This document shows positions 10,801 through 53,182 of a stretch of 64,000 bases of DNA, piece after piece. Every line of letters starts with the position of its first letter. Position 1 is the first letter of the stretch. The notes under the pieces were generated by a model. It was not told the DNA's origin. It saw nothing but the letters and a program-made list of their open reading frames with translations, and did not search any database. The stretch comes from Liolophura sinensis. Lineage: Eukaryota; Mollusca; Polyplacophora; Chitonida; Chitonidae. A program made the position numbers and the translations under genes. The DNA lies in the NCBI RefSeq assembly GCF_032854445.1, contig NC_088307.1, positions 23,261,953 to 23,325,952 of the forward strand, given 5' to 3'.

Positions 10801-13800
10801 CAGCTACCTGAGGATGGTTGTGGGTTTACCCCGGGCTCTGTCTGGTTTCCTCCCACCATAATGTTGGCTGCTGTCATATAAGTGAAATATTTTTGAGTAC
10901 GGCATAAAACATGAATCAAATAAATAAATACTTTCCCAGTTTTGTACATGGTACAGCATGTGACCATATTTGTTTCCAGGTTCAGGTGTTGAAAAGCTCT
11001 GGTAGTGACAGTGACCAGAAGGTAACCATTTTACAGTCTCGTGTAGAGGAACTGGAGGCATGGAAAGATAAGGTAGGTAAAGCATATCGTCAGTAACTCG
11101 CCTAAGATTGGTGGTTTATTCCGGCCATTCCAGTTTTCTCCATCCTTAAAATTGACTGTCCATGTTTAAGTGAAGAATTCCTGAATGCATCGTTAACAAA
11201 CAATCTAATAAGTAAACAAGATCCTAAATCTCTAAATGTCCAATTTCGGCATTTGAGACAAATGGATTTTTCTAACATTTGATTGATTGTTTTCTGTTCT
11301 ATTACGTAACATTTTGATTGGTTTTTGTGTTTTCCAGTATGATATTTTTCTCTAACATTTGATTGGTTGTTGTGTTTTTCTGTATGATAACTTTTCTAAC
11401 ATTGATTGGTTGTTGTGTTTTTCTGTATGATAACTTTTCTAACATTGATTGGTTGTTGTGTTTTCTAGTATGATAACCTGAGATCTCAGGCAGCTGTGAT
11501 GAAGGAGAGATATGAGGAGAGGATCACAGAGTTAGAGGAAAGGTTAAATGAGACTAGTGCTGCAGCTGCCAAGGGGGGCAACTCTCAGGATGTTGCCAGT
11601 GAGGTAAGTAAAATGTAAACACATGTACAATGTATATACAATGTATTTCCTTGTAGCAGACTGATCTAAAGGCACATATGTTTATAGTGCTTCATCACTA
11701 GAACGCCAGGCACAAGACACCAGGCAAAGGACACCAGGCACAAGACACCAGGCACATTGACAATATGAACAGCAGTGCTTGACATCTGTTTATTGGATTA
11801 TTTCTTTAATGTGATTTATGGCCATTTAGTTTGATTGAGGTCTTTCATGCATGAAGTGTAATTAATTTTAAGCCTTTTCCACTCATGAAACTGACTTCCA
11901 TCTTAACTCCCATGAATAAGCGTCAATCAAATAAATCAATATTAAGGGTTTTAAACTGGTGCCTAGATTGTATTCCCATGATAGAGAAGAAGTGTATTGT
12001 GTACATCTATATTTGTTTGGACTTTCCCTATTTTGGTAATGTGATATTACACCGTACAAGCCAAAAAGTTCATCGGCTTTGTACTGTGTCCATATTAAGT
12101 TTTTGAACTGAGGGCAATTATAGAATGGCTCTGAAGAAGTTAGTCCTCTTTAACGTTTTCCTGTATGATGACCTGTGAATTGTTCCTACATGTATTTGAT
12201 AATGTGATATATTGTTGTCAGGTGAAGAAGATCATGAGCTCTGTATATCACAGTCTGAGAGGCCAGCTGGAGGCTGAGAAGTCTTACAAGGGACAAGAGA
12301 CCCTGGCCATCATACTCAGCACTATCAAGGTATCTATACCTGTAACCTTCGGAATAACTTACCCCATGTAACTTTCAGAATAACTTACCTGTAGAATAAT
12401 TTACCTGAAGAATAGCTTACCCAATTTAACTTTCAGAATAACTTACCTGAAGAATAGCTTACCCCATGTAACCTTCAGAATAACTTACCTGTAGAATAAC
12501 TTTCCATAAAATAACTTACGCCATGTAACCTTCAGAATAACTTACCTATAGAAAATCATACCTGAAGGATAACTTATCTGAAGGTTAACTAAAATACCTG
12601 TAGAATAACTTACCTGAAGAATAACTTACCTGAAGAATAACTTTCCTGAAGGATAACTTACCTGAAGGATAACTAAAATGCCTATAGAATAGCTTATACC
12701 GTGTAACCTTCCAAATAACTTACCTGTAGAGTAACTTACCTATGGAATAACTTACCCCATGTAACCTTCAGAATAACTTACCTGTAGAATAACTTAACTT
12801 ACAGAATAGCTTACCTGCAGGATAACTTATCTGCAGAAAAACTTACTGCTGGATAACTTACATACAGAATAACCGACTGTAGAATATAACTTACCTGTAG
12901 AATAAATGACAAGTAGAATAGCTTACTTGCAGTATGACCTACCTGTAGAGTAACTTTGATGTATACTTTGAAAAAGGTGTCCTCCAAGAAAGATGCATTG
13001 TTCAAAATATCAAATGCTAGAAATTTTTTCTTGAATATTCATTTTGTTCTTCCAAGAATAAAACTTTGTTTTCTGATGTTAATGGTTTATAGTGGGTAGA
13101 TCGTGTCAAGTCATTAGCAATCGGAAATATTTTGGGTAAAATAAGAAAAAAGGTGTTTGTACAATGCTCTCACTAATGATAGATCACCACTGTTCTTCGC
13201 AGAGTGAGACTCTGAAAATGGTGAAGAATGAAGGTGGGGAAGCTGAAGAAAGTGAAGAAGAAAGTGAAGAGGAAGAAGAGGAAAGTGAAGAAGAGGCTGA
13301 AGAAGAGGAAGTTGTTGTTGAAACCATATCAGCCCAAACAGCAAAGCCCATTCAGGGGGCTTCACCTTCAAAAGTGACCTCTGGTGGGAAGGCAGTGAAG
13401 AAAGAGGAGAGAACTATGGAGTCAATAGAGGACCAAATACTTTCACAACTTGTTGGTAAGGACATCATGTGCAAAGTTAGGACCATATTTAGAAAAACAA
13501 TGGAACTATCTGATCCCAAACTTGCAAGAGTGGGAAGTAAAAAGTAAATTTTTTCCATCGAATTAAAATCAAAATAACGCTCACAAAGGGCTTTTAAATT
13601 ATTGGCTGAAAGAAAGTTGTATACAAACCAAACATAGCAAATGTATGAACTGGACGTTGTATTGACCTTACAGTTACTTGAATACATGTATGATATTTCA
13701 GCTATACTGCAAAATGGTATTAAATTTGTTTAGGTTTATATAAAGATTACCTTAGAATGTATTTTTAGACATTTCATAATTCATAAATTTCATAATTGTA

Positions 13801-16800
13801 TCTATCCTTTGGTTGAAATAAAAATGAACTTTTCCTGTTTACTATTAAGGTACAGAAGGAATGACAGTAACTGACAGCAAGCCAGAAAAAGCTAAAGGTG
13901 AGTGGTATTCTCTATCTGAGAATCCAGTTTGAAAAACTTCCTGCAAAGGCTTGAATGTGAATCCAATCTTTTATGACATGGGCTACAAACTATATCATAC
14001 TTTATTTTACATAAAACACCAATCAAACAAACAAATAAATTAAACAAATTATGTTTTACAAAGATGTTAATAAATTTAGCAAAGATTCTAAAATTTATGG
14101 AGGAAAATTATTTTACTTTTTGAAGGTTTGATATAGGTGTTGCAAAACTTACATGTAAGGATACCTGTATTTACTCCTAAATTTTTGCTGCTGTAATTCT
14201 TTCGCATGTTTGCAAGGTGTTTATGCACATTCTAAAAGCATTATTCTGTGTAGTGTAATAAAATTGTACTTTTTGTGAAGCCCTGAAAATGACCAGGTTT
14301 TGTTTCTCTTGTTTCTAAAACCAAATGAAAAAGTTGCTCTTTCATAGGTGAAAAGGTTGGGAAATTCAGACATTATATTAAAGAAATGGATTTTTTGATC
14401 ATAGCATTAAGGGGATGAATGTTTTCAAGCTTATAACCTGAATATTCTTAGCTTGTCTATTTCAGAATTTAAGAATTATCTGTAATTTTGACTGTTTTTT
14501 TTCTGCTTTGAAAATATCTATGTGTGTTTCAGTAAACATTATTCCAATGACAAATCTTAATCATGATTTAAAAATTGACACGTTATCGTTTTCAGAACCA
14601 TCAAAGGGTGGAGAAGATGTGATCAAAGCATCAACAAATAAAATTACTGGTGACAAAGGGAACAAATATTACAGTGAGGAATTAGATAAATCAAAAGGTG
14701 AGAAAGTTGGAACTTTTTTGTACAGGTAGTAAGTTTAGTAATAATGGCTTCTTTTTGTTGGAGTCCTGTATTTCACCTAAAGTTTCATAGAAAAAAATAT
14801 ACAACCTGAAGCGTATAAAAACCTTAAATGATAATTTTCACTTTTTCTGATAAGAAATTATTTAAACTTTACGAATAAGTGGGCTTATAAGGTGGATGCT
14901 TCAGTCAGAATCACACAAATTATGTCACTAGATAGATGCTAAGCTTTCAGAGATCTGGAACGTACAAAAATTGTTTTCACCTAAAACGCTTTCGTAGCCT
15001 TTGTTATCTGAGCAGTCTGATTTGATTACGACCACTAGTCCTTGACAAGTGAGATCAGTTCAGGTGAAGAGTTCAAACCCAGTTCCTGATGGTTTGGCAG
15101 CTGTAAAGTGTGGGAAGGTTTCTCCTCTGTGTAGCATAGTGCACGTTTTTCTCTTTGGCTCTGTTGCATTTCCTGTACCTTTAAACTCCCTTACAGTCAG
15201 AGGTAACGTAACGTGAAGAACATTTGTGATTTGTTGTTATTGGCATGGTGTACAAATTTTTTGAGGGTCTCCATGGCTCAAGTGTTACAGGAATGCGATC
15301 GCTACGAGTTCAAGTCAACCGGCTTCCGCTTAGATACATGAAAGGTCTGCCAGCAACCTGCCGATTGTCATGGGTTTCCTCCCTCCATAATGTTTGTCAT
15401 GGTCACATAAATAAAATAATCCTGAGTATGCTGTAAAACACCAATCAAATAAATAAATAATAATTCTTTATTTCTCAGCAGGAAAGACAGATATAAAGGC
15501 GACAGTTGAACCCAAAGTTAAAAGTTCCGAAGGAAAAACGGAGATAAAGGAAGTTATAGAGCCAGTAATAAAGAGTGAAAAAGATGCTATTACAGGCGAT
15601 AAAGGGAACAAATACTACAGTGCAGAGCTGGACAAGGGGATATCTGCTTCAGGTAATCAAAACATAATAATGTTTGTGTCTTTCAGAATGTTTCCTGCTT
15701 TATCCACAGGAATGTTCTTTATAACTTGCTCTGGAGGCCAGGTACAGATTTGACTGGGTGGCTGGCTGGAGTTGGTCATTTGTCTGGTATACAGAGTGTG
15801 GATTTATGTGTGAAGAGGATATAGAATGACATTTAACTTTAAAGTTACATGTAGTCAAAATATTCTCTGTCATATTTTTTGTACCTGCTTGAAACTCCCA
15901 GCTGAACTATAAATAATTGCTTTTACCCAAATTTGTACTTCAACCCCCATTCAACCAGCTGCAGTGCAGTTCAGCCAGTCACTGAGCAGAGAGATGATTG
16001 GCTAAGCACTGAATGAGGAACCCCGCCCCTCCTGCCAGTCAACGAGAACCATCCATGCGGAATGGATGCCAAGATCTCTGCTGAAGATTTGTAATATTCA
16101 CCCGACGATACCAAGGAGTACATCGAACACAAAATACAAAGCCTCCTGATGCAAAATTCAGTTGAGAAGGACTCCAACAACGGGAGATTTCTTTTTAACT
16201 GTTGTATTGTACATTGATTAACTAAGTGATTCAGTGAGTGAGTTCTGAAACAATAATGCAAAACTCAGATGACTTTACAATAAGAAACGTCAAAATTAAA
16301 CCGAAACAAAAATAAAACCACACAAAAATGTTATGGCGTCATTCAGTGTCTAGTAAACATTTAAAATTGAAATTAATTTCATTTATATTTAAATATTAAA
16401 CATTACAAGTTAGCGCAATAATTTAAGCTTTAAGAATTTAATGAAACTTTGGAAATATTTTTCAATTCACATAGAATACATACATAGTAAATGCTTGACT
16501 AATCAAGCAACAGATAAGGTATTATAACCAAAAATGGGTTACTCATTACTTGGAATATCGCAGAAATATTAACTCTCAAAATGCACATTTACCTATAAAT
16601 TGTTATTAATAAACATTAATAAACAATCATATATCACAGTTAAAGCGATCATCACATTCCATCCATCACAGTAAAAGCGATCATCATATTCCATCCATCA
16701 CAGTAAAAGCGATCATCACATTCCATCCATCACAGTGAAAGCGATCATTACATTCCATCCATCACAGTAAAAGCAATCATCACATTCCATCCATCACAGT

Positions 16801-19800
16801 AAAAGCGATCATCACATTCCATCCATCACAGTAAAAGCGATCATCACATTCCATCCATCACAGTAAAAGCGATCATCACATTCCATCCATCACAGTAAAA
16901 GTGATCATCACATTCCATCCATCACAGTAAAAGCGGTCATCACATTCCATCCATCACAGTAAAAGCGATCATCATATTCCATCCATCACAGTAAAAGCGA
17001 TCATCACATTCCATCCATCACAGTGAAAGCGATCATTACATTCCATCCATCACAGTAAAAGCGATCATCACATTCCATCCATCACAGTAAAAGCGATCAT
17101 CACATTCCATCCATCACAGTAAAAGCAATCATCACATTCCATCCATCACAGTAAAAGCCATCATCACATTCCATCCATCACAGTAAAAACGATCATCACA
17201 TTCCATCCATCACAGTAAAAGCGGTCATCACATTCCATCTATCACAGTAAAAGCGATCATCACATTCCATCCATCACAGTAAAAGCGATCATCACATTCC
17301 ATCCATCACAGTAAAAGCGATCATCACATTCCATCCATCACAGTAAAAGCGATCATTACATTCCATCGAAATCATTGATATGATACATATAGCATTCAGT
17401 CCCCCAGCTGATGTTTGTTTACAAACATGAAGATGGTCTAGCCCACATTAGGGGTGATAGATTGGTCTTTTATTTCAAAATTTCTCAAACATTTAAACCT
17501 TAGGAACATATCTTTCTACTTTTTCGGCTGTATAAAAACCATTCCAAAACACACAAAATAAATCTAATTGAATAAATGCAACTAGATGGAGGTAACAGAT
17601 ATATTCAAATCTGTACACCCGACACAAAAATGGACTGGCTGCCAAAATGAGGCAATTTTCAAAGCCTAAAAATGTACTAGAATGACAACGAAATTAGAGA
17701 TAAATATGACAATTTGTCCATTCTATTTCACCCACATTGCAACAGTAATGCCATTTTATATCAGTATGTCAAAATTACCTAATGATTGGATCACTAGTAA
17801 AACATGTTGAACTGGGTTGTAAAGCCCTTCAAATAAGATGCGTATCCATATTGTCAGCTTGCTCAAGCAGGAGTGAGCATCAAGATTTTGGCTTGCTAAC
17901 ACGGAAAAGCGTCACGGGAGATATATGATGGGATCAGTTAGAAGCCAGACAGGTACACAGGCATTACGCAACACCTCCTGATTGTTGTAAAGCTGTTGAT
18001 TTTATGTATCTGCTTCGTCCTGAACCTAAGGAACCAAATCTTCCCACCTAAAGGAACCCAAGCTTCCCACCCAATAAATCCAATTTTTCCACCCAAAGGA
18101 ACTGAATTTGCTTTTCTAGAAAATATGTTCTCTGATTTTAAAGACAACCAATTTAAAGGGTCAGTGATCACAGAAATGAAAACTTGCCTAAAGATTTCAT
18201 CTCTTTCCCGGTAAGATGAAAGAAAGGATTTGTCTGTGAATATTGAAATTTATTATCCACCCAAGGATATAAAGAACTTAAAGCATAGGGACATTTTCAC
18301 TAATGGAAAACTAATAAAAAGGAAACCTCCCTGTACTCCGAATTTCCCTGTCACCCCAGAATCCAAAACAGCGGACACCAAGCAGGCTTTTCCTGATGCA
18401 TGTGCTATTTTGAAGTTCCCTCACCCTAAACAGTATTGATGTCACTTAAATTTTTCCTGAACCAGTGTGTCCTACCCTGAAGTCATCACCCACAAGAGGC
18501 CTTTGACCCTTGCACACGCAGCTGCACCATTGACAGGATTCTCATGTGTGTAATTCATGTGCTGTAAATATCATATACCATGTTGACAGATGAATCTGGG
18601 GAGGGTTCTGAAGAAGATAGTGAAGATACATCAGAAAGTGAAAGTGAAAGTGATGCCAATGGTGGTGGTGTTGCACAACAGCAGGCAGATAAAGAAACCA
18701 ACCCCATTGAGCATACTGATGTGATAAGTGAAACGGAAAGGGTTCTTGACACTGTGGATGAGGTACCAGAAAACGAGGCTTCTGAAACTGACAGTGGTAA
18801 GGAGGAATATCCTGATGATGATAGAGGATCAAATGCCCTTGATGAAACTGATGAAAAGAAGGAAGTTGGCGAGAAACGTATGGACACTGATACAGCTGAG
18901 CAAGATGAAGTTAAAACAGACATGGGAGAGATTGGAAATGATGAATCCCATACTGCTGATGGTGGCTATGTTTTTAATGCTGCTGGCGATGCGAGTGTTG
19001 ATAATGATGCTCAGAGCAATGAAGTTTCACCTCCAAGTGACAGCGCTGGAAAATCTACCCACCCTGCAGATAATGACACAACTTCTCACCCACAGGATGA
19101 AGTTGGCTACACTCTTTCCTCCCAGGATCAAGTGATGGATGAACCACCTAAAGAAGGTGTCTACAATATGTAATGCAAGCAATAACACTTAAAGAATTTG
19201 TTTCAATTTTACATGTAATTTGGGCTTTATGTCTTTCACAGCTTATTTTATCATGCCACATAAGTTCTGTAGTGTCTCAAATCTGTGACTTTTTATTTAT
19301 ATTGCTGACTCTTCAGGATTTTCTTCCATAAAAGACTTCTATAACTATGGTATAAGGTATAATTCATTGTCATTGGTTCTGACAAATGGAATTACCCTGA
19401 ATCTTCAAACTTTTTCAACCACCTCAGCAACCAGTATTTTGAAACATTTTGAGAGAACTATGGAGTGTAAAGAAATAATCGGCACAGAGTTATAAAACTT
19501 GCATCTTTAGTGACACAAACAAATAACTTTTTGGCTTCATTTTCGTAATAAATGTCTGCAAAAATAATACTGACAAAAGTGCTGTAGCTGTTATAGTATA
19601 TATCAATGTTTCCCCTTCATATTAACCTGCACAGCTGCAGAAGAGACAAACGCTGCACCTGAGGAACAGGCCCAAACAGAAACCAAGGAGCTTAGTCACT
19701 CTGGCCGCTCCGATGAAATAACGATTAAAGGTGAAGCTGATGAGGAAAGCCAAACTTCAGAAGATGACCAGAATGATACAGATCCTGGAGAAAAGGAGAA

Positions 19801-22800
19801 CAGAGAAAAAGGAGTAGCTGAAAATACTGTAAAAAGTGAAATAGGTGGGGGATGATTCAGACCAAGAGGCAGTAGCAAGTTTAGTTACACCTAAACACCA
19901 GCTTATAATTTTAGAACTTTTGAGCCTCTGATCTTTCCTTTCTGCACTTTGTCCACATGTAATATTTCTACCATTAAAAAAATCAGTATGAAGCATCATT
20001 AATGTTACAATTTAATTGCTTGGAAAATAAGATAAATTAAATCCTTCTTTATTTACTTAACTTGAATCTTAATTCAACTTAACTTGAATATAAAATTGAT
20101 TGAATGCGTATATTCTGCACTTTTGACCTTAACCACCAAGGTCATTTGACTTCACAGTTTCATGTCCTTACATCACCATGTTATGTGTTACCCAAGCTAC
20201 CTACCCTATTTCTGTGTTCATTAGAATCTAATCTGTTGTTCTGATATTCACGATCTCACTTAATAAAGCTTTGTGTTGTTTCACCTAATTCCGGAATGTT
20301 CTTGCCAAGACGCTTGTTTCTGGCAGAACCAGACAATTCCAGGTGGCATCGTTCCCTATCCAACAGAGGAATCTCCTGAACCACAACAAGAATTACTTGT
20401 ACCCTGTCTTTACCAATTATAGGAATAAGCTTTGTGTTGTTTGCTTACACTGTTGCACAACCCCCAAACCCTTGGTTGTTGTTAAAAAGCCACTGGATGT
20501 TACACTTCTCTAACCAAGGAAAGGAGGACGTTACCATGCCACCACAAGAACTGGACACGTTCTACCTTAACCTGGCGTAAAACCAAGCTTCATGTGTGCC
20601 CCGTGGCATGTACGTGTACAATACCAAATCTTGAAATGTTGTTGGAGAAATAGACACTTTTTTTTTCTGAAACCCAATGTCTCCCTTCCTTAACCAACAG
20701 AAGGACCACCATCCCAAACCACAACAAGAACTGCATGTTCCTTGCCTTTACAAGTTGTAGAAACAAGCTTTGTCATGTTTGTTTGTGACACAACACCTAA
20801 TAGTGAACTGTTGTTGAAACTGCACCTGATTGTTCCTGAAACCAGATGACACCCTTCCCGGCAACCTACAAGAGAACCACATGTGCCTTCCCTAACCACA
20901 CCTCCAGCAAGCTCCCTCCTTGCTTGTTGACTAATATCACAATCTCTGAATCTTCTTGAATGTCTTTCAAGACTCTCCACCCAGCAGCACGCAGAGTCCA
21001 CCTGTCTCCAGTATGGACTATGATGCGCCATTTGAAGGGCAGTCCATTGTAAAGGAGGAAACTTCTTCGGAAGAAGAACCTGTTCAGAAAGAGGAGCCCT
21101 CTGATGCTCACCACGTAGAAGAACCTTTGGCATCAGCAGAACCTTTTGCGCAAGAAAAACCTTCAGAGAAAGGGGATTCTCTTGCAACTGCTGAAGATGT
21201 GCCTAGTGAGAATGGAGTGTCAGAAGAAGGTGGAGTGTTCCACACAAATTCATGATGTGTAGTTTTGCAATCTTGAAATGTTACTTTTATATCACCGTTG
21301 TCTTGTGGTCAGTTCCAGCCTTGACATTCTTGATTTATCAAAAGAGCTGCCTGCATAGTTTTTTTTTCCAAATTTAAAGCATTTGCAAAAAAAAGGAAGT
21401 TGACAGAATTGTCCTTAGGTTCAAGCTCTTTGGTTATGGCTTGTGTGTCTGCATGATGAACGCAGCTGTTTTGCTTACAATGTGTATATTTAATTAATAT
21501 TTGATTAAATGTTTGAAGATGGAGAGAATCTCTGGCTTGAGGAGAAAAATCCTATGGAAGTAAAATTCCCTAATGGACTTTCACTCAGCAAAGCCAATAC
21601 ACTAATCTTATAATCAGCTGTGTACGTACTGTGAAAAACAGTATTGTGCATGTCTATTACAAATACTGCAACACAGGGAAATATAGCTTCCAGAAAGCTG
21701 ATTCGTCAGAAAGTTGTACATTTCCCTGATTGTTTATTGGAATTCAACAATATTCAAGCAAATAAAGAGGCACTGTGCAGTGAGGGATACAGTTCGATAC
21801 AAGCCACTTAAAACATGGCTATTATTATGTAAATCTATATTTTGTATATTGTAGACAAATCCAAAAAGGATGCATCAAAAGAAGACAAGAAAGCTGAAAA
21901 TCAAGATCATGCAGGTGAGTGTGGCGTTTGGTATTTCAGCATCTGTGTGATACAAAAGTTTATGGTATAATATATGAGCAACCTTTCTTTCTTTAGTTCC
22001 CACAAGGCTATTTCATAAGTTTTGCATTCCTAACATGACTGATGAACCTAAGCAATAAAGGCAGAGACTTTATGTGGCACATAAGACTTCAGTTGCAAAA
22101 TGATTTTATAGGGGCCTTTATAGGGGCCGAGGAGCTAGAGTGCTAGCACGGCACAAGGCCTGTCACCAGTGTGGTCGCTGTGAGTTCCAGTACAGTGCAT
22201 GCTGTCTGTTTCTCTAGTTGTAAATGTATGTGTATCTGGATAGGCCTTCCCCCAGACTTTGTCCAGTTTCCTTGTATCATAATGTTGGCCAACATTGTGT
22301 ATAAAGTGAGGTACATGTATTATTTAGAGGTGTAATTAATAATAATAACACCAATACAAACAAATACATAGAAATCGATTTCAAAATTTTGTAAAATGGC
22401 TGGCATCATATGCCATTGCTGTGATCTTTAATCTTGCAAATTTGAAATGTTACTTTTAGATCACAATTGTCTTGTACCGTCAGTCACAACCTTGACATTC
22501 TGACAGTAGTATTTACTTCGAAAAATGAAGACTTTTCAATTGTTTGAGAAATATTTGTCTGGTGTTGGTAAGAAGACCCTCATTCTCTCGTGGTGGACTC
22601 ACTTAGATTTTGTGTTTTACATCATTAAGGCTTTTCCTCCGCTGAAATAGAGGCCATGTTGTTTGGTTCCTCAACCAGCGGGTCTAAGAAACCTTTGCAA
22701 GCTGAAAAGCAAGCTGGGAAGGTAGTCGAACCCCTAGTGGCAAGCTCAGCTGCAGGTGTCAGCATGGGAGGTAACCCTTACCATGCTGAGAAGCTCGACA

Positions 22801-25800
22801 AAAAAGGCAAAGAGGAAGTCCCTGTAGAGGTGATAGAACCAATGATTGCCAGCTCGACAACTGCCTCATATTTAGGCGCCAAACCATCGGGAAGGGGAGA
22901 CAAATCTGGTGATTATATGCCTCGACCTGAAGTATATATGTAATTGGTGTAGGCTCAAATGCAGATCATATACATTCTCTTGTGCTTTGGTTTGGGTATT
23001 ACATGGGTGTATGCTTATCTAATTTACTATATCAATACTAGATGCATATTCTCTAGGTGCACTGTGTACTGGCATCACTGACCTAGCATTACATTTTTTT
23101 TTTTTTTTTTGCAATTTACATAATTTTGGGGCATCTGCTCATATGGTTTATGTATGTGATTTGAAGATTAATAATATGTAAAAGACAGCAAAAAAAAAAA
23201 AAAAAAATACTCAGTCAAAGATTGGCATCTTTGCCAGTAACGTGCAGATGGATTTGGGTTTCCCTCAGGTTCTCTCACGGTAAAAGTGAAAATATTATAG
23301 AGTATGCATGCATGGCATGAAACATTAAATGAAATAAATAAATTTGCCTACTTAAATATATTTACATGTATATGTAATGCCTGGAGCTGGTTTCGCCTGG
23401 GATTAAGATTAATCCCAGGTTTCACAAAGCATGCTTGATAGTGATAAATAGGCCTTTATAGCTATGTGCACTTTATACCTCCACAGCATATGTTGTCATG
23501 GTACCGGTTGTTAAGGGTTTACTTAGCTAAGTGTGCTTTCTGATACTGACTGCAGGACTCCCAATTTGCAAATGGCTTTCATCATTCATTTCAGACTTTT
23601 CATATGGCTCAGAACAAATTACAATTAATACGAAGTTTAGGCACTAAACAATTTAAGACAGCTTCGTATCTCAGAAGCTTATGATTGAGTAATGATGACA
23701 TAAAGATTAGCTGCTTTCTGCTGTGGATACACATTTCCAGGTCCAAAAAAAAAGAAAAAAACACAACGCATTATGTATATGTTTGGCTAGAGAGGCCTTT
23801 ATTTTGGTTAAGGTTTTGTGTAACGTGTACACATTTGTACCGTCCTGCTTCTAACCCTGTGCATAAAAGCTAGTTATCTCCCCTTACTTCTAAACACTTG
23901 TGCTTTGTTTTAAACTGCTTAATGGATTTGTTTTTATTAGAATTCTTCCAAAAACAATTTTTACATGTACAGAGGTCATGACCATGAAGATATACTAGTA
24001 GTTTGCTTTATCTTTACAAACACTGCTAGCTTCCTTTAGGTCGTGCTCAGAAAGTATGTTCCTATTTTTAACATGATCCATAGATACATGTATTTACTTC
24101 GTGTATGTTACATATATGTCATGGTTTGGGGCCCTGGGGCCACTTTCACAAAGCGGGGTACGATATTTATTTATCGTACATTTGACATACGATATTTTGT
24201 ACGTCAAAATTAACATACCGTTGTCTCACATGTGTGATATCGCACAAGTACTACATCTTTGTGAAAGTGGTTCCTGGTTATTTGACGGCGTCTGCGTTAG
24301 TACGCTGATCAGTCACATGTGGCTGAATCATTTGCCAGTATACCCTGAATGACCTGAAATTTCGCCCATAAAAGTGCATTTTTAGAGGCAAATAAATGTC
24401 ACAAAATATTATTTCTTATGCTGAAACTTACATTTTTCCAGTAGAATATCATCCCATGTTCCAAGAAAACCTCAAAACATCTTTTAAAATCAATAGAACT
24501 CTCAGAATCAGGAAAAATGGGCAAGTTAGTCATGGACGAAATGGTTGGTCATTTAGGGTATCCTTATCTTGAAGTCCTCTGTAAACGGTGAATTATTCAT
24601 TACACATGTAGTGATGATCCTTTGTTATTAAGCTGACTTCAACCAGTAAACAGCACTACTGTTATTCTTCAACCTTTTCACATGTTTTGATGCTGTTTAT
24701 TCATGCAGATTCTGATGGCACTATTCTGTGTAGACTGATAAAATTATACTTTTTGTGAAGCCCTGAAACTGACCAACCCAAGCAGTGTAGTTTTGTCTCC
24801 AAAATTAAGTGAAGCGTACACAAAACTGGTCTGAAGCTTGTCCTTTGTGTGTGTGAAAGGGTTGAGGAATTAGTGTATATGTACTTAGCATTATGTCATC
24901 TGTATGTATGCCCATGTGAGATCATTTGGTGTTACATGAAGTAAACAGAGTCATTTGCATACCATATGCATGTACAGAGCAACTCCTAATCAGCTGATGA
25001 TGGTAATATATTTTCTGTAAAATGTCCATTTTAGGTTTTCTACTGAAATATTTGTCATCCTTTTAAGAAAATATATGAAAGACAAATAGGTATAAATTGA
25101 AACAAAGTGTAGATATATACCTTCGAAGGGTACAAACTGCTATTATAGTAATGACAATTTTTTAGTTTGAAATCTTTATGTTAAAAAGTGCCTGCTTTGT
25201 TAATGCCAGTGACACATTTACCTGTGGTGATATGATGTTGTTTTAAAATCATTCTTTTCATGGAATACCAGTAAGATATAACTTTGATAAACTTTTCAAC
25301 ATTTTTGGGGAAAAACTTTAAAACTTTACTTTCAGAGGTTTCAGCAAATAACTTTATTTCAACAGATAAAAAGCCTGTGTCTGAACCAGAGCTAAAGAAA
25401 TCCAGTGGCAAGATCACTGGTGATAAGGGTAATCGTTACCATGGTGACAAACTGGACAAGTCCACAGGTAATAGTGGGGGAGGACTGGTGTTCGTTTGAA
25501 CAATTCAGGGCTTCAAAAAATCTGATTTGGACAGACCCTTTGCTTAAATTTTCTATTAATAGTTTTGACACCTTTAAAATTCCAATGTAAACTGCTGTCT
25601 TACAAAATTGGCATAGCGGCATAGATATTCATTCCATATTCCAAGGAATATTCAAGCAATTCTATAAAGTTCTCTGTACTTAATTGAGCGTTACATGACT
25701 TAAGGAAGTTTCTTTATTAATGATTAGTTAATTAGGCCTGAGAAAATGTGTGGAAGAATTGTGGTTTATTTGAAGTTACAAATTATTAAGTACAGTTGAT

Positions 25801-28800
25801 AATTTCACAGGCATTGTTGAAGTGTTTAAATAGATTGAGAAAGTCTTTTGTTTTATCCGAGTAAATCGGGTAATAAACCTGTCTGTTCAAAAACTCATAG
25901 AACACATGTGTATACTTGCAACAGTTGTGGAGCCTCTCTTTGGTAAATCTACTGCTCATGTGACTGGTGACAAGGGCAACCGTTACCATAGCAACAAGTT
26001 AGACCAATCATCTCCAGGCAAAGGTGATAACCTTACTTAAACGCAATTTTCTTTACATGGTAATGGTGAAATGCAAAATTACCAAAGGATTGACCTTTTG
26101 TTGACCTTTCGGGTGTCAGCCTTACAGGCACATGTATTTCACATATTCCATAAGGTACATTTGCATTTTCATGTATTATAAGCTTTTTGATTGGATGGCA
26201 TTTCAATTTAATTTTTTTTCTTTTATTTTACTCGATATAGTTACCACTATGTATTTATTAATTTAGTTCTTGTCTAATTTAGTATATATATTTATTTCTG
26301 GATTTTTATTACCATAACTATAATTTTAGGGCATTTTAAATTTTACTTGGTTGGAACATGCATGTCTTCACCTTTGACTTTTTTTGTTTATTATTTATTT
26401 CTTGTTTCTCTGTTGTGATTCTGAAAACAAAATTATTAGTCCAAAGTGCCACAGATAGTGAGGTTATGATCTGTAACTTTTTTCACCTATCATATTATCA
26501 GAAAAGCCACAAGCCGCACCAGTAGTAGAAACAATGAGTACCAGCTCAGCAGGGGGTGGGCTTAGCGCAACCCCAGGGCATGCCCCGGGAGTGTCGTCTA
26601 CCAAGCCCATCCCCGTGGAGGAACCCATGATGGTGGCCAAGTCAGGCTCCGTGTCTATGGCAGGTACAACTTGAAACACAAACAACATTTTACGTTGCAA
26701 TCATTGACTACATACATTAATAACTAGGCTCTAATGAGCAAGTCTTTCCCATCTGATTGGATACATGTAGCTCCATTGCTGGAGCTATGGGGCCATGCAC
26801 CCTGTCTTGACTTGAGCCAGTATTTTCACTGTCGAGATTTATCGGTGTTGGAAATGACATCTCCTTGATGTATTCTCTGACAATGATAACAAATTACTTC
26901 TCTTTACAAGTGACAAGATTTACTTTCATTTTACACAAAACAACATACAAAATTTACATTTATCTCTTTCTTTATGTAGCGAGATGTAAGTTACAAGACT
27001 CACTTCCTGTTGTGTTCAACAGTAAACAAATTACACCCCATGTAACAAGCTTTTTTTTTTCATGATCAAAACTTTGCTGTAACATGTACTGTAACATGTA
27101 CTGTAACGTACTGTAAATAAAAATAGCAGTTGATGGGAAAGTGCATCCATTATTGAATTTTCAGCTAAAAGATAATAACTATTCAGCCCCTCAATAATTT
27201 TTAGCTGTAAATTTCTTAATTAACATCATAAAAATATACATGTGATTGAAAAGACTCTCTCAACTGTGTGATTTTAACTTGGAGGGCTTTATGTGTATAG
27301 CATCATATGATGTGTGTTCAATACTATGATTGGTTCAATACCAATCAATCAATCAATCAATCATTGTCCCAATCGATTCCTGTCCCATGTGTTTCTAGCG
27401 CAGCCTGTTAGTGTCTCAAAAATCTCGAAGTCCAAAGATCACCCTACAGGAGATAAAGGGAATGTGTATCATTCCGCTAAGCTGGACCAGAGTAACAAAG
27501 ACAAAGGTATCACCAACATACCTGTATATACCAGGTGTTATATAGTCATGGGCTTGTAGAGGTAACTCTATTGGTACTAACTCATTACACATCAACATAC
27601 CTGTATATACCAGGTGTTATATAGTCATGGGCTTGTAGAGGTAACTCTATCGGTACTAACTCATTACACATCAACATACCTGTATATACCAGGTGTTATA
27701 TAGTCATGGGCATGTAAAGGTAACTCTAGTGGTACTAACTCATTACACATTAACATACCTGAATATACCAGGTGTTATATAGTCATGGGCTTGTAGAGGT
27801 AACTCTATTGGTACTAACTCATTACACATCATCATACCTGTATATACCAGGTGTTATATAGTCATGGGCTTGTAGAGGTAACTCTAGTGGTACTAACTCA
27901 TTACACATCAACATACCTGTATATACCAGGTGTTATATAGTCATGGGCTTGTAGAGGTAACTCTATCGGTACTAACTCATTACACATCAACATACCTGTA
28001 TATACCAGGTGTTATATAGTCATGGGCATGTAAAGGTAACTCTAGTGGTACTAACTCATTACACATTAACATACCTGAATATACCAGGTGTTATATAGTC
28101 ATGGGCTTGTAGAGGTAACTCTATTGGTACTAACTCATTACACATCATCATACCTGTATATACCAGGTGTTATATAGTCATGGGCTTGTAGAGGTAACTC
28201 TATTGGTACTAACTCATTACACATCAACATACCTGTATATACCAGGTGTTATATAGTCATGGGCTTGTAGAGGTAACTCTATCGGTACTAACTCATTACA
28301 CATCAACATACCTGTATATACCAGGTGTTATATAGTCATGGGCATGTAAAGGTAACTCTAGTGGTACTAACTCATTACACATTAACATACCTGAATATAC
28401 CAGGTGTTATATAGTCATGGGCTTGTAGAGGTAACTCTATTGGTACTAACTCATTACACATCATCATACCTGTATATACCATGTGTTATATAGTCATGGG
28501 CTTGTAGAGGTAACTCTATTGGTACTAACTCATTACACATCAACATACTGTATATACCAGGTGTTATATTTTCATGGGCTTGTAGAGGTAACTCTATTGG
28601 TACTAACTCATTACACATCATCATACCTGTATATACCAGGTGTTATATTGTCATCGGCTTGTAGAGGTAACTCTAGAGGTACAAACTCATTACACATCAA
28701 CATACCTGTATATACCAGGTGTTATATTGTCATGGGCTTGTAGAGGTAACTCTATTGGTACTAACTCATTACACATCAACATACCTGTATATACCAGGTG

Positions 28801-30761
28801 TTATATAGTCATGGGCATGTAAAGGTAACTCTAGTGGTACTAACTCATTACACATCATCATACCTGTATATACCAGGTGTTATATAGTCATGGGCTTGTA
28901 GAGGTAACTCTAGTGGTACTAACTCATTACACATCATCATACCTGTATATACCAGGTGTTATATAGTCATGGGCTTGTAGAGGTAACTCTAGTGGTACTA
29001 ACTCATTACACATCAACATACCTGTATATACCAGGTGTTATATAGTCATGGGCTTGTAGAGGTAACTCTAATGGTACTAACTCATTACACATCAACATAC
29101 CTGTATATACCAGGTGTTATATAGTCATGGGCTTGTAGAGGTAACTCTAGTGGTACTAACTCATTACACATCAACATACCTGTATATACCAGGTATTATA
29201 AAGTCATGGACGTGTAGTGGTAACTCTAGTGGTACTAACTCATTACACATCAACATACCTGTATATACCATGTGTTATATTGTCATGGGCTTGTAGAGGT
29301 AACTCTATCGGTACTAACTCATTACACATCAACATACCTGTATATACCAGGTGTTATATAGTCATGGGCTTGTAGAGGTAACTCTATTGGTACTAACTCA
29401 TTACACATACATACACATGTGTACTGTACTGTATATATCAGGTGTTTATAGCCAGGGCATCTTGTGGTAAATGTATCCAGCAACTGTAAACTAATTCCGG
29501 TAATGTAAAGATTAAAATTTGCACATACATGTATATTCATTTTGATAAAAGACGAAGTCTTTTAAAAGTGCCAATGTTTTGAATCAGTATTAAACATTGA
29601 ATACATTATATTGTTTTAATGACAACATTTTACAAAAAAGCAGTGAAGCCATTGATATTTACAACCATGTATGTGGTAAAACTTTGACATTTTCATTTCT
29701 AAACATAAAGCAGGTGGTAAAGTTGAGCCCTTGATACATCATTCAGCTGGTCACCCAACAGGAGACAAGGGTAATCCCCACCACACTGCACACCTCAACC
29801 AATCAGGGAAAGGTGATGACCTCATATTTGCATATTCACGTTTTATGAATATTCATGAAATTTATTTGATACTCTGATATTAAAGGAACAATAAGGACAG
29901 CCTATGTAACAGCATATTATGATTATTTATGGCCGTTACTCAGTACATAGATTATATATTTTTGTTTTTGCCGTCTTTGGATGTCGACACATCCTATTGG
30001 ATGCTAAGATGCAATGCATGAGAATTGTATTTGATACTTTTATTTGTATTCATTTAAAAACAGAACTTGTTCCTTATTTATTCATTTTATTTATTTATTT
30101 ATTTTATATTATTTGCTTATTTTTAGTGTTTTTTCTTCTGTATTTGTTTAGTCAAATACCTTTATTTCATTGGTTGAAGGAGTCCCAGTGGAGGCAGTAG
30201 AGTCTAAGATTGTCAGTTCCTCAGGGGGTTCAGTAATGAGTGGTAATCCTTATCACTCCTCTGACCTGGGAAAGTCCACTCCCGGTAAAGGGGGCAAAGG
30301 TCTGCCTGTCGAAGAACCCATGATTGCTAGCTCAGCCACATCCCAAACAATGGCGGCTAGTCCAAGCTGTAATAAAAATTCTGACAAAGATAAAAAAGGT
30401 GATTTCTGCTTTTAACATGGCAAACATTTTCATGTAAAGAATTTGGGGGAAGTGCTGTATTAAATATACAGTATTCTATCAAGTGCATTTTAGTGCGGGA
30501 AAATACATTTGGCATTAATTGGAAGAAATTAATAATGAGCATCGGAAGAGCATTGCTGGTGCCAAAAAACTCTTGATGTATTCTGGAAATTTTGAGTATT
30601 AATCTGATAAAATTATAGCCTGAGAGAAAACTCCACAGCCAATACAAATTCATTTTGGGATCACATGACCTCACACATTCCCATTGACAGCTATGCAACA
30701 TGTGCTAATGCAATTCTAATCAGTACATGCATATCAGAGTTTATTTATTTGTAAGTTATCC

Positions 30762-30805
<44 letters not shown>

Positions 30806-33800
30806 CAATACTCACATTTAATTTTGTGTTTACATTAGAAGCTGTGGTTGTTGAACCAATGATAAGTAAGAAAAGTGACCATGTGACTGGTGACCATGGC
30901 AACAAGTATCATAGTGCCAAGCTTGACAAATCCGCAGATGGGAAGCCTAGCCCTAAAGCAGGTATAAATTCTTGTGAGGATGTGAGCATATAACAGCATA
31001 TATGTATACAAACTTCCTTATAATCAATCTGACTATTAATCATGCAGTAACCTCTGTTAATAGATAGTTATAAATTACACTCTACTATCATGGCTGGGGA
31101 CTGGACATATGTATATGAGCTTATCTGATCTCTTCTTGCCCTGTCTCTTTCATGTGTTTTTCTTGTGTTTTTTTTTCTTTTTTTTGAATTTCTGAAGTAA
31201 AGTTTATAGCCTATGGTATTGTTGGAGTTTTGTTCATCAGTCTATTCTTGATAAATTTGGTGAACTAGTTTTTCTTGGCAGTGTTTTACTGATGTTTTGC
31301 CCAAGTACTTCATGTACTGATTCGCTGGTGGGTTAGCTTATACCAGATCACAGACTTAACCCTGTGTACATATAAGATCATGTTTTGCTCTGTAGTTTTT
31401 GTGAAAACACAGAGTCTCCAAAACTGCAATAACTGTTCAATAATGTATCTGATACATGTGATTAAGAATCCAGTCATGATGAGCTCCAAATTCAAAGGGT
31501 ATTTTTTGGAGGCGATGGGGTCTACTTTAGCTTTGCCAAAGTAAGTTTTGAAGGTTAGCCTCCAATTGTTTGTGCCTCCAAATGATCATTAAAATCATTT
31601 ATTTTCATTGAGTTTTTGTGGTCAAATCATGCGCCAAGTTAAGTTTTGTTCGTATCAAATGTGAACTGTCTAAATATAAGTAAGAAAACATGCACCACAG
31701 ATTGAACCTTTAAACTCAAAATTCCTGTTTTAAATAACTTACTTCTTTTCTTCTTTGCTCTTTGAACTACTTGAACTGATAAACCTATGTTAACGATAAA
31801 CCTGGGGTTACTCTGTATGCTTTACTAACATATATGTCAGCAGACTAAGACCGGTTCGTAGTCAGAGTACATTGGCACTAAACTTTGCAAAAGTTAATCA
31901 TTCAAACACCTGTTGATCTACAAATCTTTCTGTCCTAAAATTCTTTGAGCTTCTCTTAAAACTTATAGATATATTACTGCATATTACTAAAATATTATGA
32001 CATGAATGTTTTAATGGATGAAGAGATATGCACATGTCCTTGAATATACTAACATAATCTAGGGGACCTCTTAGCCCCGGTACGTGTGTTTAACAACTGT
32101 TCAGAAGAAAATTAGGCTTCTGCATATAATTGATTTTTATAAAGTCTTCACTGCTTAAAATTTATTTATGTATTTTTAGATACCCCAAAAATCAGTTGGT
32201 GTACTTACATGCAGTTAAGAAGTAAACTGTCTTGTATTTTGTGTAGAGAGAATCTGATTCAAGATTTACATACAAGACTTAATCCTTATCTCTGTTTTTT
32301 TATGTTTTATTTTGTCGATGTTTTAATCATCTCTTCAACTCTTAGAACTTTGATGGATGTTAAAGTTATTAATTTGCTGAAACCTTCCATTCATTAGTGG
32401 TAATTAATGTCTTATTCAACACTTTACTTAGAGTGCATTTGTCCAGCTCTGTTGAAAGATGTTGTCTTTCTCTAGCTCCAGTTGTTGAACCTCTGTTTGC
32501 CAAGTCCTCTGGTCGTGTGACTGGAGACAAAGGGAACCCGTATCACAGCAGTAAACTTGATCGGAAAAAAGGTAGATGTATGGAACTATAGCTTGTTTTG
32601 ACCGGTCGTGGACCATGGGTGACGGGTTTGTGGTGCTCGAGTTTGCTGCATCTTTAGACAAAGATTGAATAAGTACTTCATATATTTTTCAATCACTTTT
32701 AGAAAATATGCTGAAGTAACCAGCAACTGTGAGATGTTAGTTATTTCATGTCGGGTGTCAGCCTGTGAATTTCTTGGTATTTGGGGTGGAGTGTGATGAA
32801 AGTCTACTTTGGTTGCCGATTTGGAAAGAGGGTTAATTAATAAAAGCTTTGCCAATGTTGTTGTGTTAACCTTTTCATATGATACATGCGTTTGAGAATA
32901 TCTAAAAGTTCCCAGAAAATTAGTGTAGAAGATGACAAAACCTTTTAAGGTGAGAGTTATTTTGATATATGCTGCTTTGGAGTAAATTAATTTCCTGGTA
33001 ATAGGTTCCTCTCCGGCCATACATCTCCGGGAAGGTCTGTCAGCAACCTGCACATGGTCGTGGGTTTCCCTCTGGGCTCTGCCTGTTTTCCTCCCACCAT
33101 AATGCTGGCCGCCGTTGTATAAGTGAAATATTCTTAAGTACGGCGTATAACACCAATCAAATAAATATATAAATAAATAAATAAATAAAATTAATTTCCT
33201 GGTATTACTCCCAGTGCATATCTAGTTGAAAGAATGTTACTTATACCAGTTTTCCTTTGTATTCTTTGTTTACATTTGAATAAACAGCATGAAATGATGT
33301 GTAGGAATATTTAATGATTTCATGTACAGTATTTCACATGAAGCTTTAGTGTTTGCATTGTCTCAAAATATAATTTTTTGTCAGCAACCAGAGCTCTCAA
33401 AAAAGTGCTAGCATGCCTTAACCTATGGAATTACCTGTTCAGTTCAACTTAATCCCAGGTATATATCCTGAATGATGTACCGGTTGCCTTTGAAGAGTGG
33501 CTTTATAATTGTAGATTTATATACTGGTGAAGACTCAAAGCTGTACCTGGGTTCAGTAATAATAATAAAGACCAGGCATCACCGCGTAAATGTAAAAGTT
33601 TTCACAAGCTTTTGATCCACATGCCAGCATAATTGCAGATTTATCGATAGACCGGCATAATTGCAGATTTTACATAATTGCAGATTTGTGTGAATTGACC
33701 ATTTCACTTGACCAATGCACGTGTCACGTGTCCAGCTAGCCCTACAATGCATAGTCCCGTAGGATTTGCACTAATCAACACCAGGAGAGCATTTAAATTT

Positions 33801-36800
33801 TAGGCTTCAAATTTGTGACCTTGGGCTTAGTTTTGCAGAACATCTTAAAAATTTCAGTGTTTTGCATAATCACTTTTTGTGATGGCATTATAATCATAAT
33901 CAAACACATTCTTAAAAGAAAAAGCGGGGCCTCCGTGGCTCAGTCGGTTAGCGCGCTAGCGCAGCGTAATGACCCAGGAGCCCCTCACCAATGCAGTCGC
34001 TGTGAGTTCAAGTCCAGCTCATGCTGGCTTCCTCTCCGGCCGTAAGTGGGAAGGTCTGCCAGAAACCTGCGGGTGGTCGTGGGTTTCCCCCGGGCTGTGC
34101 CCGGTTTCCACCCACCATAATGCTGGCCGCCGTCGTATAAGTGAAATATTCTTGAGTACGGCGTAAAACACCAATCAAATAAATAAATAAAATAAAAGAA
34201 AAAGGAAGCAAGAAAATGGATTTATGAGCCTTGAGAAAAGAAATCTTTGCAATCTATTTGTCTTAAAATATTTTGAAGCTTTAATTGTTTTTTCCGACAG
34301 CACATCTCAGGGGAAATTGATGATCATCTTTAAACTGATGACATACCGGTATTTGTTCTCATTACAGACAGCTTTTTATCCACAGTGGAACAGAAGATAA
34401 CTTTCATGTATCAAAATCAAATCAGTGCGATGATAAATAACTGATTCGGTTAAACAGCCCGAAAGCTAGAGATCACATGATCGCTTTAGTAACATGCAGC
34501 ACGGGTGAAAAACCCCAATGTTATAGCATATAAACATACCTATATTGGAATCACTGTCAGAGATAGCTTATTCGTTGGATCTGTATATTTTCAGCAGTCC
34601 AGTTGGGAGAATTTCTGTAGAGCTTATGAGGTGTCCTTTTGTACAACCTGGACTTACTGACTGCTGACAGAGTGACAAATATGGATCCCTTTTCCTTATG
34701 CTGTTTTGTTTTTGTCCTCAGTACAGTGTTCACATGATCTCCATCTTCCGGGCTGTCAAATGGCAATCGGTTTTTGTTTCTAAAACAGCAAAACAAATGT
34801 CAATCAATTAATTAATCCATCAATCAAGAATTGTGACTTTTTTGCAGATGGCTCAGCTCCATTAATTCCAGCCATGAATTCCAGAACGCCTCCCCCAATG
34901 GATAAGTAAGTTCACTTAACTGGAACCTTACCACTTATTTCTTTTTTCCCTCTCTCACCGAAAAGTGATAGGTAGATGGTATTAGGGGCCTATTTCAGAA
35001 GCGGTATTACTGTAATTTTTATGCTTTTTTGCATAAAGAATCAAATTAGAAATGTGAATAAATTACACTGAAAGTTTCTCTCTTATATGTGAAAAGGTTG
35101 AGGAACTGGAGTATGTCAATATGGTAGATAAATATAGGTATGATGTCAGCCATGTATTGTTATGTCTTTGTTATTGTTCTTGGGTACAAGTTCCACGGGG
35201 AGGTTGAGGTTAAAATGCTTGTCTTGTTCAGTTGGTTTAAACACATTCTTGTACAGATACCTCTCTCATTGTCCTGGGTGCCTTGGTAGCAATGTGAAAC
35301 AGTTGAAAGTACGATCTTGGTGTGTTGGAGACCACTTTCTTCCACCAGTTTGACATCTCACGCTTTAAAAAGCTTACCAGAAACTTGTCAAAGGTTGATG
35401 GTTTACTGTAGGCTCTCTGGTTTCCTTCTCCAGTGAAATGTGATGTCATTTTGTATGTTACAGATCTTTCAGTTTCAGGTAATAAACTAATTCCAAGCAT
35501 GTATTGTTTGACTTTGTTTTACTGTGATATGTTTTGATGGAGGATTGATGACCATTTTCACAGTCCATTTTGTTTTTTAATGATTTTTTTTTCTGTGTCC
35601 CATTTCACAAAGCAGAGCCCAAATTTCTAACCCAAATTAGTCACAGTACATTCATGCATCACATCGATGCGCACTAGTATTTATTTATTTATTTATTTGA
35701 TTGGTGTTTTACGCCACAGTCAAGAATATTTTACTTATACGATGGCGGCCAGCATAATGAAACTGGGCAGAGCCCATCGGAAACCTACGACCATCCGTAG
35801 GTTGCTGACAGAGCTTCCCACGTAAGGTTAGAGAGGAAGCCAGAATGAACTGGACTTGAACTCACAGGGACCACATTGCGCAACAATGGTGTGCTGACCT
35901 CCTCGACCGTGTCAGCTCCCTGATGTGCTCAAGTATAATTTTAGCCAAGTTTGAGCATACAGCTTTGTAAAAAAATTTGTTTTGTAAAACCAAAATGGCC
36001 TTTTGAAAAAAGCCCTAGCTTGGTCGATGGTATCCATGGATGATCTTCATGTAGCCGTGGCCAGGTTTCTTGAATCTGAGGTTTCTGCTGATTGGCTTCT
36101 GCTTTGTGAATAATTTTTCTGGACAAAACCCATAACTTGCTCTTGGATTTTTTAGCCATTGTTTGTGGTATGGAATTGAAAAAAGAACTAGCAGAAAATC
36201 TTGAATGAGCATGGAAAATTAAAATTATGGGAAACCAGAAATAAACAAACAGTTGGCAACTGGTAGTATTGAGTTGCTAAGATTGACAGAGATCCAAGCT
36301 GATGCATGCAGTTCTTTCATGTGTGGTGTTATTTTTCAGCTCTCTGTTTGGTGATGATGACACGGTAATGGACACATTCGGTACAGACTTCAAACCTGCC
36401 GACGACAATAAAGAAAAGGGCAATAAAACAGACGGAAAGAAGAAAACAGATGAGAAAAAACCTGGAGATAAAAAATTACCCAGTAAATCTGAGTTACTGT
36501 CAGATGATGTAAGAAACTTCGTTTTTAGATAATAGTAATATAAATGGTCACAACAGTATTCTCTCTGTGTCACAGTGTTAGCGTCAGATCATATGTATAC
36601 TTTTTATTTTACTCCCCAGGGGGAAAAACATGCCAAGCATGTACATAAATATTCATCTGCATGGAGGGAGAAATGTCGGTTCAGTCCGTAATACCTCCTT
36701 ATGTAAGATTGTAGCTAAAACCGTTGAGAGCTTGATTCAAGAATACCTCACTGGTTACCTGCCAAACTTCTGGACATAAGATTGCAGCTGAACCATTGAG

Positions 36801-50141: not shown

Positions 50142-51741
50142 TTAATACATTTTCTTAACATTGGAGAAAGGAAGAGCATGTTCATCCAACCATTTTCCAA
50201 ACTCTTCCGCACACGTCTGAATATTTTCACCAATGTTATGCAGTCATCTTCTGCAGCATGGGAAACTTTGGTGAATGACCAAAAATTCTTTTGTATATCT
50301 CCGTCAATTTGAAAGACTTACGATTGTTCGATGTAGACGTGCTTGGAACACTGGTTGTTGGCTGATTACAATCTGAATGATTGTCGCGGTGCATAGCTGT
50401 CATTTGATTGGTGTAGTTTTTCACATCTTTTGTCGTAGCAGTAACTGCCTTGACTTCTGATTGGTCCCATTTTCTTGGCGTCACCTGACCAGAATAAATA
50501 TCTGAGGCTTCATTGAAAGTGAGATTTTCGGCACTGTTGTTTTCAGATGACCTGCCCTGTGCTTGTTGGACATGACTGTGAGTTGCTGATGAGTTGGTAA
50601 GTTCCTGTCCTTCCTGATTGTGAGTTGTTGATGAATTTGTAGTTTCTGTCCATCCTCATACTGAGTTACTGATGAGTTTGTAGCTTTGTCTTCATCAGAT
50701 TTTGAGTTGCTGATGTGTTTGTAGTTTTGTGTCCATCCTGATTCTGAGTTGCTGATGAATTTGTATCTGGATTGTCCTTGGTTCTGAGCTTCTAGAGAGT
50801 CTGTGCCCTACAGACAATAACAGAGCAGTTGTTAGCACCTGATGACTGATTTCTGGGTGTTTGGTCCAGTAGCTGGTCAACTGCCGATATTAAATCCTCA
50901 TCAGGAAGCGAGTAGTTATTAGAAACTGTTGTTAAATCTGCCACTTGATTGGATGTGTTTGAGTGGTCATTTGAATTATGGCTAACATCATCTACTGATT
51001 GTTCCTCCACACTCACTTCACTGTCACTGTCGGAAAAATCATCAGGAAATGGTAATAATTCATTAGAGTTGTCTCCCTTCTCTAAATCATGCCTAAATTC
51101 CACAGGCACTGATACACTACCATTTGAATGACTTGATTCTCCTGATCCATCAGTGAAAGCGAGCCTGCGGCGCGCTAGCGGTCTGGACTGCCCCTGTGGT
51201 GAAGGGGGCGGAGATGCTGCGCAGGTGTCTAACGAAAACACACCTCTGTTCAGGCCACAAGATTCGTCTTGCAATAACCGTCTTTTTGCAAACCTCATAT
51301 TTCCTAGGTGTCGTCCATTTTCGGGGCGACTTCGCTTCTTTCTGGGAGCAGGAGGTGGGTGTGCAAAGGGTCCTGTGGCGTCATTATCAGACTTCACCGG
51401 CGTAATTTCACTGGAAAAATATGTCGGCCTTTGGTTTGACAATGTTGGTGTGGAAAGCAGTCTACACCCAGCCATGGCTCCATTTAAGTCATGTCCCTGA
51501 GTTGTCTCCCTTGTGGGGTCAATAGCTCTCAGCGCCTCCAGGGTGTCAGCACAAAGGACATCTGCAGGCAGACTTAGTGCCAAACGCTCCAGTTCCATCT
51601 TCAGCATGGGGAAATCAAATTTATCTCCATTGTGAGCCAACAAACATACTGGCTGTGGCAGTCTTGATAGGAACAAACTCAACATCTTCACAGCATTTTC
51701 ATCAAACACTGGCAAGTCTTCCAAGATATCATTGTAAAGAC
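50142..51741 (-). CDS. TREX-like exon 2 (Exo II, long insertion, Exo III), frameshifted
   Basis: Acceptor (minus strand) tgttttctcag before 51741. It opens LYNDILEDLPVFDENAVKML, then the Exo II block and DTLEALRAIDPTRE, then a Ser/Asn/Pro-rich insertion with a basic patch (APRKKRSRPENGRH; FAKRRLL) that could act as a nuclear signal. Repeated units of the type NSSATQNQDGHKTT follow, then KSFKLTEIYKRIFGHSP, the Exo III block and a TAA at 50144-50142. The frame is open as one piece only from 51741 to about 50795. Confidence 0.8.
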
Positions 51742-53072: not shown

Positions 53073-53182
53073 GTTGATGATAATGGTTATTAAATGCAAT
53101 TTTCTCAATCAGTGACCAAAATTGCTTTGTCAATCAGTGAAGTGCTGCACAGAGAATCATAGGTCTTCATTCACTCAAAAAC

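Follow-up and report, generated by a model that had tools for sequence, protein, structure and literature searches.

A 64,000-nucleotide stretch of the genome of the chiton Liolophura sinensis (NCBI RefSeq assembly GCF_032854445.1, contig NC_088307.1, positions 23,261,953 to 23,325,952 of the forward strand; this whole stretch is called the window here, and positions within it are counted from its first letter) contains part of a gene, FKBP15/WAFL-like as judged from its domains, in which a peptide module of roughly 30 residues is repeated many times. Each copy occupies its own symmetric exon, the copies belong to a sequence family that occurs at four loci of this genome, and the core of the window copies is under purifying selection. 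The module is genuine, it has no name in the libraries that we searched, and it is broader than was stated in an earlier, sequence-only reading of the window. We propose, with a probability of about one half, that it is a disordered linear motif carried on a phase 1-1 exon, shuffled as an exon between unrelated genes, duplicated in tandem, and serving as a multivalent docking site.

The ten module exons of the window, all on the + strand, were taken from the list given in the sequence-only reading and were not selected on phase. Every one of the ten starts named there carries the module; each exon is an open frame with AG before it and GT after it, each has a length divisible by three, and phase is 1-1 in 10 of 10. 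Reading the exons also confirmed the division into eight with the core (14596 to 14697, 15482 to 15652, 25366 to 25467, 25925 to 26023, 27399 to 27506, 29714 to 29812, 30839 to 30961 and 32476 to 32571) and two GNPYH variants (22630 to 22908 and 30180 to 30398). The ten-copy alignment yields the consensus xxxVVEPxIxKSxxxxTGDKGNxYHSxKLDKSxxxx, or in shorter form about (V/I)EPxxxxSS...TGDKGNPYHSxxLD; a G, an N and one L are invariant in the ten rows, E and Y are nearly so, and mean identity among the module copies of this gene is 47%. The motif TGDKGN-x-YHS-x-KLDKS, under which the module had been announced, stands as a consensus and fails as a literal string: TGDKGN is exact in seven of the eight core exons (30839 has TGDHGN) and YHS in four of eight, and the full string is exact in none of the eight. 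The variant exons have no TGDK, reading SM-GGNPYH at 22630 and VM-SGNPYH at 30180. Both of them, like core exon 15482, hold a second lead-in, which indicates that lead-in and core can part. One further exon, 26502 to 26663, absent from the earlier list, is phase 1-1 and has two lead-ins (PVVETMSTSSAGG and PVEEPMMVAKSGSVSM) and no core; it is probably an eleventh, core-less relative, a kinship that rests on the lead-ins and the phase because its profile score is only 9.0 bits, which is at noise level.

Selection on the peptide is seen in the 16 core codons of the eight core copies, where the proportion of differing synonymous sites (pS) is 0.983 and that of differing nonsynonymous sites (pN) is 0.222, with pN below pS in all 28 pairs. 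For TGDKGN alone the values are 0.857 and 0.036 (27 of 28 pairs), and for the 12-residue lead-in pN/pS is 0.69 (25 of 28). Since the synonymous sites are saturated, no finite synonymous rate (dS) can be stated; saturated pS together with low pN nevertheless means that selection acts on the peptide of these copies. A simple neutral simulation, run at settings on either side of the nucleotide divergence found (0.38), gave mean amino-acid identities of 0.39 to 0.30 and never more than 0.53, whereas the real copies stand at 0.69. In their 400-bp flanks the ten exons have nothing in common except the overlap of neighbours and a minisatellite, and this lack of shared flanks argues that the duplications are old. 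The earlier proposal, that the copies have a long history and that selection on the peptide maintains them, is thus borne out by saturated pS against low pN; a ratio of nonsynonymous to synonymous rates (dN/dS) near 1, which would have spoken against it, is not what the window copies give, their pN lying far below pS.

Five whole-genome protein searches, made with different member or consensus queries at expectation values (E) up to 10, placed all of their matches (29 of 29, 20 of 20, 8 of 8, 28 of 28 and 28 of 28) in four loci: the window gene, an array on contig C12, and two loci on the contig that carries the window (C13), which we call gene A (15.788 Mb) and gene B (29.461 Mb). About 32 copies were found in 609 Mb, all of them in these four loci and in tandem sets; protein searches score only the best candidates, so the copy counts are lower bounds and more diverged copies may exist. 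Patterns at the DNA level gave a similar distribution. A degenerate pattern for TGDKGN matched the genome 14 times, seven times each in the window gene and on C12, and its reversed control had no match; a second, looser pattern had 17 matches, all within three of the four loci (control 3); and a third, for GNPYH, had 7, six of them in three of the four loci (control 2). We also built a profile from the ten window copies and ran it on 5321 open reading frames (ORFs) of the window and the fetched loci. The training copies score 53.4 to 68.6 bits, as they must by construction; 19 ORFs at the three other loci, none of which was used in training, score 23.9 to 45.0 bits (15 in the C12 array, 23.9 to 45.0; gene B, 38.0 and 34.0; gene A, 27.5 and 25.1). 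Next come a frameshifted C12 copy at 11.7 bits and an ORF at 10.3 bits, which is also the best score in five shufflings of the 5321 ORFs.

The largest of the other sets, on C12, consists of 18 GVVEEIVEPSVRSSTGFTTGDKGNVYYSQQLDKT-like exons, some of them in 170-bp units whose introns measure about 65 bp; of the 18, 15 are open and phase 1-1. On one strand with the array lie matches to Ran_BP1 both upstream (E 7e-47) and downstream (E 2.3e-6, from two joined ORF pieces) and to Zn_ribbon_RanBP upstream (E 4.8e-8), and RanBP1 exons on both sides together with a zinc ribbon point to a RANBP2/Nup358-like host. RANBP2/Nup358 also has a cyclophilin domain and N-terminal TPR; we know of no description of it that includes an 18-copy exon array of this module. 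A separate tandem repeat of about 83 bp, as estimated from ORF spacing, occupies 3621 to 5386 of the reverse complement of the fetched RANBP2-like region and is open in all three frames. Gene A has two copies, both phase 1-1, between ADK matches on the same strand (E 3e-54 downstream and 1.1e-24 upstream, each from joined ORF pieces), and we infer that its modules belong to the same transcript as the adenylate-kinase exons. Gene B likewise has two phase 1-1 copies, and no domain was recognised by eye in its flanks; a gene 25 to 34 kb downstream, which from its look we take to have CCP-like repeats, seems separate.

That the module turns up in three further places in this genome suggests transfer of a ready-made exon from gene to gene, and common descent with amplification gene by gene fits the sequences best. 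The C12 array expanded recently. Among 14 of its 18 copies mean identity is 91% and dN/dS 0.26; this set omits the three broken copies and an intact copy at 7970 that is one codon shorter, and the exclusion of broken copies lowers dN/dS somewhat. The competing idea is convergence, each of the four loci having evolved a similar peptide on its own because the same binding was selected for. It draws on the statement in PMC13364712, made there for an actin-filament motif, that linear motifs usually arise anew. We consider it very unlikely here, as the likeness extends over about 30 residues, lead-in included, and the intact exons have the same phase at all four loci. Dispersal over unrelated genes might equally be expected if a mobile element had donated the exon and the copies were exonised pieces of a transposon, and the flank of exon 15482 does match the flank of one C12 copy over 51 bp at 82%, probably through a SINE-like repeat (SINE, short interspersed nuclear element). 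Such an origin seems most improbable, however, for so small a set of copies, confined to four loci and tandemly arranged, with no further similarity between the flanks of the 16 exons compared (2 of the 18 C12 copies included) and no match to any family over cut-off.

The sequence-only reading compared the module to a short linear binding motif and knew of no named domain of its form; the second judgement has held up, and the first agrees with the lack of a predicted fold. AlphaFold2, run on copy 30839 with an alignment of the ten window copies, returned no confident fold, the mean predicted local distance difference test score (pLDDT) being 65 and the predicted template modelling score (pTM) 0.15. 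The peptide is probably unstructured, as would be expected of such a motif; a low-confidence model fits disorder without proving it. On the same two values we rejected a folded mini-domain. None of 12 module queries passed a curated cut-off in Pfam or NCBIfam, the best matches below it being DUF4165 (four joined modules; E 0.0022, 18.5 bits against 25) and DUF7522 (two joined C12 modules; E 0.0065, 17 against 27). A profile search of the PDB at E up to 10 found three sequences that match over 9 to 12 residues, two MtrB chains (E 0.013) and an antibody (E 4), which we take as chance. Pfam, NCBIfam and the PDB therefore offer nothing credible; nor was a transposon envelope seen. A viral origin was set aside after a single degenerate peptide pattern found no match in viral contigs. 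The strings TGDKGN, GDKGNPYH and GDKGNRYH occur in none of the papers searched, and none of the best-ranked papers listed deals with the module, judging by titles and the openings of abstracts. A repeat of conserved Tyr, Ser/Thr and Thr with no predicted fold might also be an array of modification sites, such as kinase or glycosyltransferase substrates, with the enzyme itself as the partner. The Tyr and Ser are not invariant, and we think this reading unlikely.

The window starts inside the host gene. An FKBP_C match over the Pfam cut-off (52.7 bits) lies on the + strand at C13:23215115-23215258, about 47 kb before the window, and is followed by five collinear + strand matches to PF23649 (FKBP15) between C13:23226101 and 23263839; two of these are over cut-off and three below it (E 0.0023, 0.057 and 0.11), the last of the five falling inside the window. 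A sixth PF23649 match, with E 0.66, lies elsewhere on C13. Coiled-coil-like exons continue on the + strand of the window at 1795 to 1878, 9218 to 9289, 9869 to 10021, 10980 to 11072, 11469 to 11603 and 12222 to 12329, all open and with AG/GT ends; their joined translations match PF23649 in part (profile positions 187 to 222 of 224), below cut-off. Everything from the FKBP exons to the module exons can be read as a single putative gene, and we presume that the module copies are expressed as part of it. With FKBP15/WAFL it has in common an FKBP domain, an FKBP15-like domain, exons of coiled-coil-like sequence, and an acidic tail and terminus; to our knowledge, the tail of vertebrate FKBP15 has no such module. 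FKBP15 co-precipitates with VPS35 of retromer and with WASH proteins, according to PMC4024763, which calls its precise function undetermined and reports fly and worm to be without it.

Apart from the module exons, we placed the following open frames in the tail, on the + strand: an acidic exon of phase 0 to 1 at 13203 to 13455; a short exon at 13850 to 13897; acidic exons at 18590 to 19156 (3' end tentative), 19635 to 19844 and 20972 to 21229; and an exon at 21855 to 21914. All 16 tail exons placed after 13203 to 13455 and up to 32571 are phase 1-1, a pattern to which the search itself contributed in the case of those that are not module exons, since part of it asked only for such exons. In this arrangement most of the tail's second half consists of module exons. 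A candidate linking exon, tentatively placed at 34848 to 34905, would join 32571 to a penultimate exon at 36340 to 36508 (phase 2 to 0, beginning SLFGDDD), and the terminal exon, 37725 to 37799, encodes SLKEKPPPLFGDDDDDDDLDWLSK and then a stop, giving the gene an acidic terminus and an end at 37799. The vertebrate FKBP15 C-terminus is, we assume, nearly the same as this one, a lead and not a test.

The composition of this tail raises the alternative that the modules are spacers or charge-patterned filler, net basic exons set beside acidic ones so as to tune the length and charge of the tail. Joined, the 16 exons have 21% acidic and 12% basic residues (exon 20972 was entered with a start three bases later), the net charge of the core modules is +1 to +4 in seven of eight and -2 in one, and phase 1-1 exons would make changes of length easy. 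A spacer needs composition and not particular residues, yet the near-absence of nonsynonymous change in TGDKGN, and the return of the same residues at the three other loci, concern exactly such residues; we regard this alternative as quite unlikely.

Several repeats lie among these exons. A 79-bp minisatellite of 24 copies (27514 to 29408) begins eight bases 3' of module exon 27399 and occupies most of the intron before 29714, and a 32-bp tandem repeat of 23 copies (16633 to 17367) lies in another intron of the gene. A dispersed repeat, SINE-like by look only, is found on both strands at 6390 to 6833, 9436 to 9729, 10749 to 11115, 15230 to 15470, 32586 to 33221, 46.4 kb and 47.0 kb; it accounts for recurring peptide strings in the ORF lists, and two of its copies adjoin module exons 15482 and 32476. 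Beyond the gene, minus-strand exons at 50792 to 53108 and + strand exons at 60163 to 62400 look like those of a TREX-type 3' exonuclease and of alpha-spectrin, respectively. Elsewhere in the assembly, contig C99 carries COX1 seven times at intervals of about 15.5 kb, and it is most likely a mitochondrial genome that was assembled as a concatemer. Translated with the invertebrate mitochondrial code, COX1 stays open for 512 residues, its AGA/AGG codons standing at expected Ser positions and its AAA codons at expected Lys positions, which disagrees with the echinoderm, cnidarian and vertebrate codes. Together with the reported lack of FKBP15 in fly and worm, this points to a lophotrochozoan as the likely source.

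Returning to the docking-site proposal, we suppose that the module exon reached unrelated genes by shuffling into their phase-1 introns and multiplied within each of them by tandem exon duplication, having moved and not arisen repeatedly. The symmetry of the exons means that the reading frame survives the gain, loss or skipping of any one copy, which would leave copy number tunable. Many weak, similar peptides could then gather a common partner onto endosomal, nucleoporin-like and adenylate-kinase proteins, the copies in a flexible tail acting by avidity as they may in FAM21. The presence of the same module in nucleoporin-like and adenylate-kinase genes would argue for such a common partner over a ligand of the endosome only. 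Several observations weigh against this proposal. The evidence comes from the genomic sequence of one species, and no match of any kind points to a binding partner. Identity between loci averages only 33 to 43%. Three of the 18 C12 copies are broken: two contain a stop and are not a multiple of three in length, and one is frameshifted and lacks the donor. Among five near-identical C12 copies the exon is no better conserved than the intron (p-distance 0.036 vs 0.025), so that selection is not visible in this young block. Finally, the seventh match to the GNPYH pattern, a lone GNPYHSS-like string at C9:22613452-22613477, lies outside the four loci; with two matches for the reversed control, it is probably chance.

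Two kinds of known system resemble what we propose. LFa repeats consist of Leu-Phe followed by acidic residues. FAM21 (WASHC2) has 21 of them, with varied affinity for VPS35/VPS29, according to PMC4110399, and is likewise an endosomal protein with many short linear motifs repeated in its tail. The chiton module differs in having no Leu-Phe plus acidic run (none was found on reading the ten window copies), in being mostly net basic, and in its length of about 30 residues. By this definition of the motif, the only part of the window gene that looks LFa-like is the C-terminal LFGDDDDDDDLDWLSK of exon 37725 to 37799. That segment is similar to an LFa-type or tryptophan-acidic motif and might be a binding site for retromer or a motor. 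With class 1-1 exon-shuffled modules our module has in common the symmetric phase, tandem duplication and spread to unrelated genes. Such modules known to us are folded, mostly extracellular domains, whereas ours is short, predicted to be unfolded, and set among intracellular domains. Repeated linear motifs are known, as are exon-shuffled domains; what is unusual is a motif with no predicted fold that passes from gene to gene on a symmetric exon.

A more general view, which we put forward as possible though doubtful, is that a disordered linear motif can act as a mobile domain. A single symmetric exon would have entered four or more unrelated genes whole and been amplified in each, so that an endosomal adaptor, a nucleoporin-like protein, an adenylate kinase and a fourth protein would carry several copies of the same tag, with one receptor reading all of the copies and valency set by copy number and splicing. 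PMC13364712 describes an actin motif with an origin ex nihilo, without exon shuffling, and regards such an origin as typical of linear motifs. If the module does travel as an exon, it would be a datable, testable exception to the origin of motifs in place by point mutation. The same reading, if true, predicts a partner common to the FKBP15-like, RANBP2-like and adenylate-kinase proteins of this animal group, and the module itself is a bait of known sequence with which that shared partner might be found.

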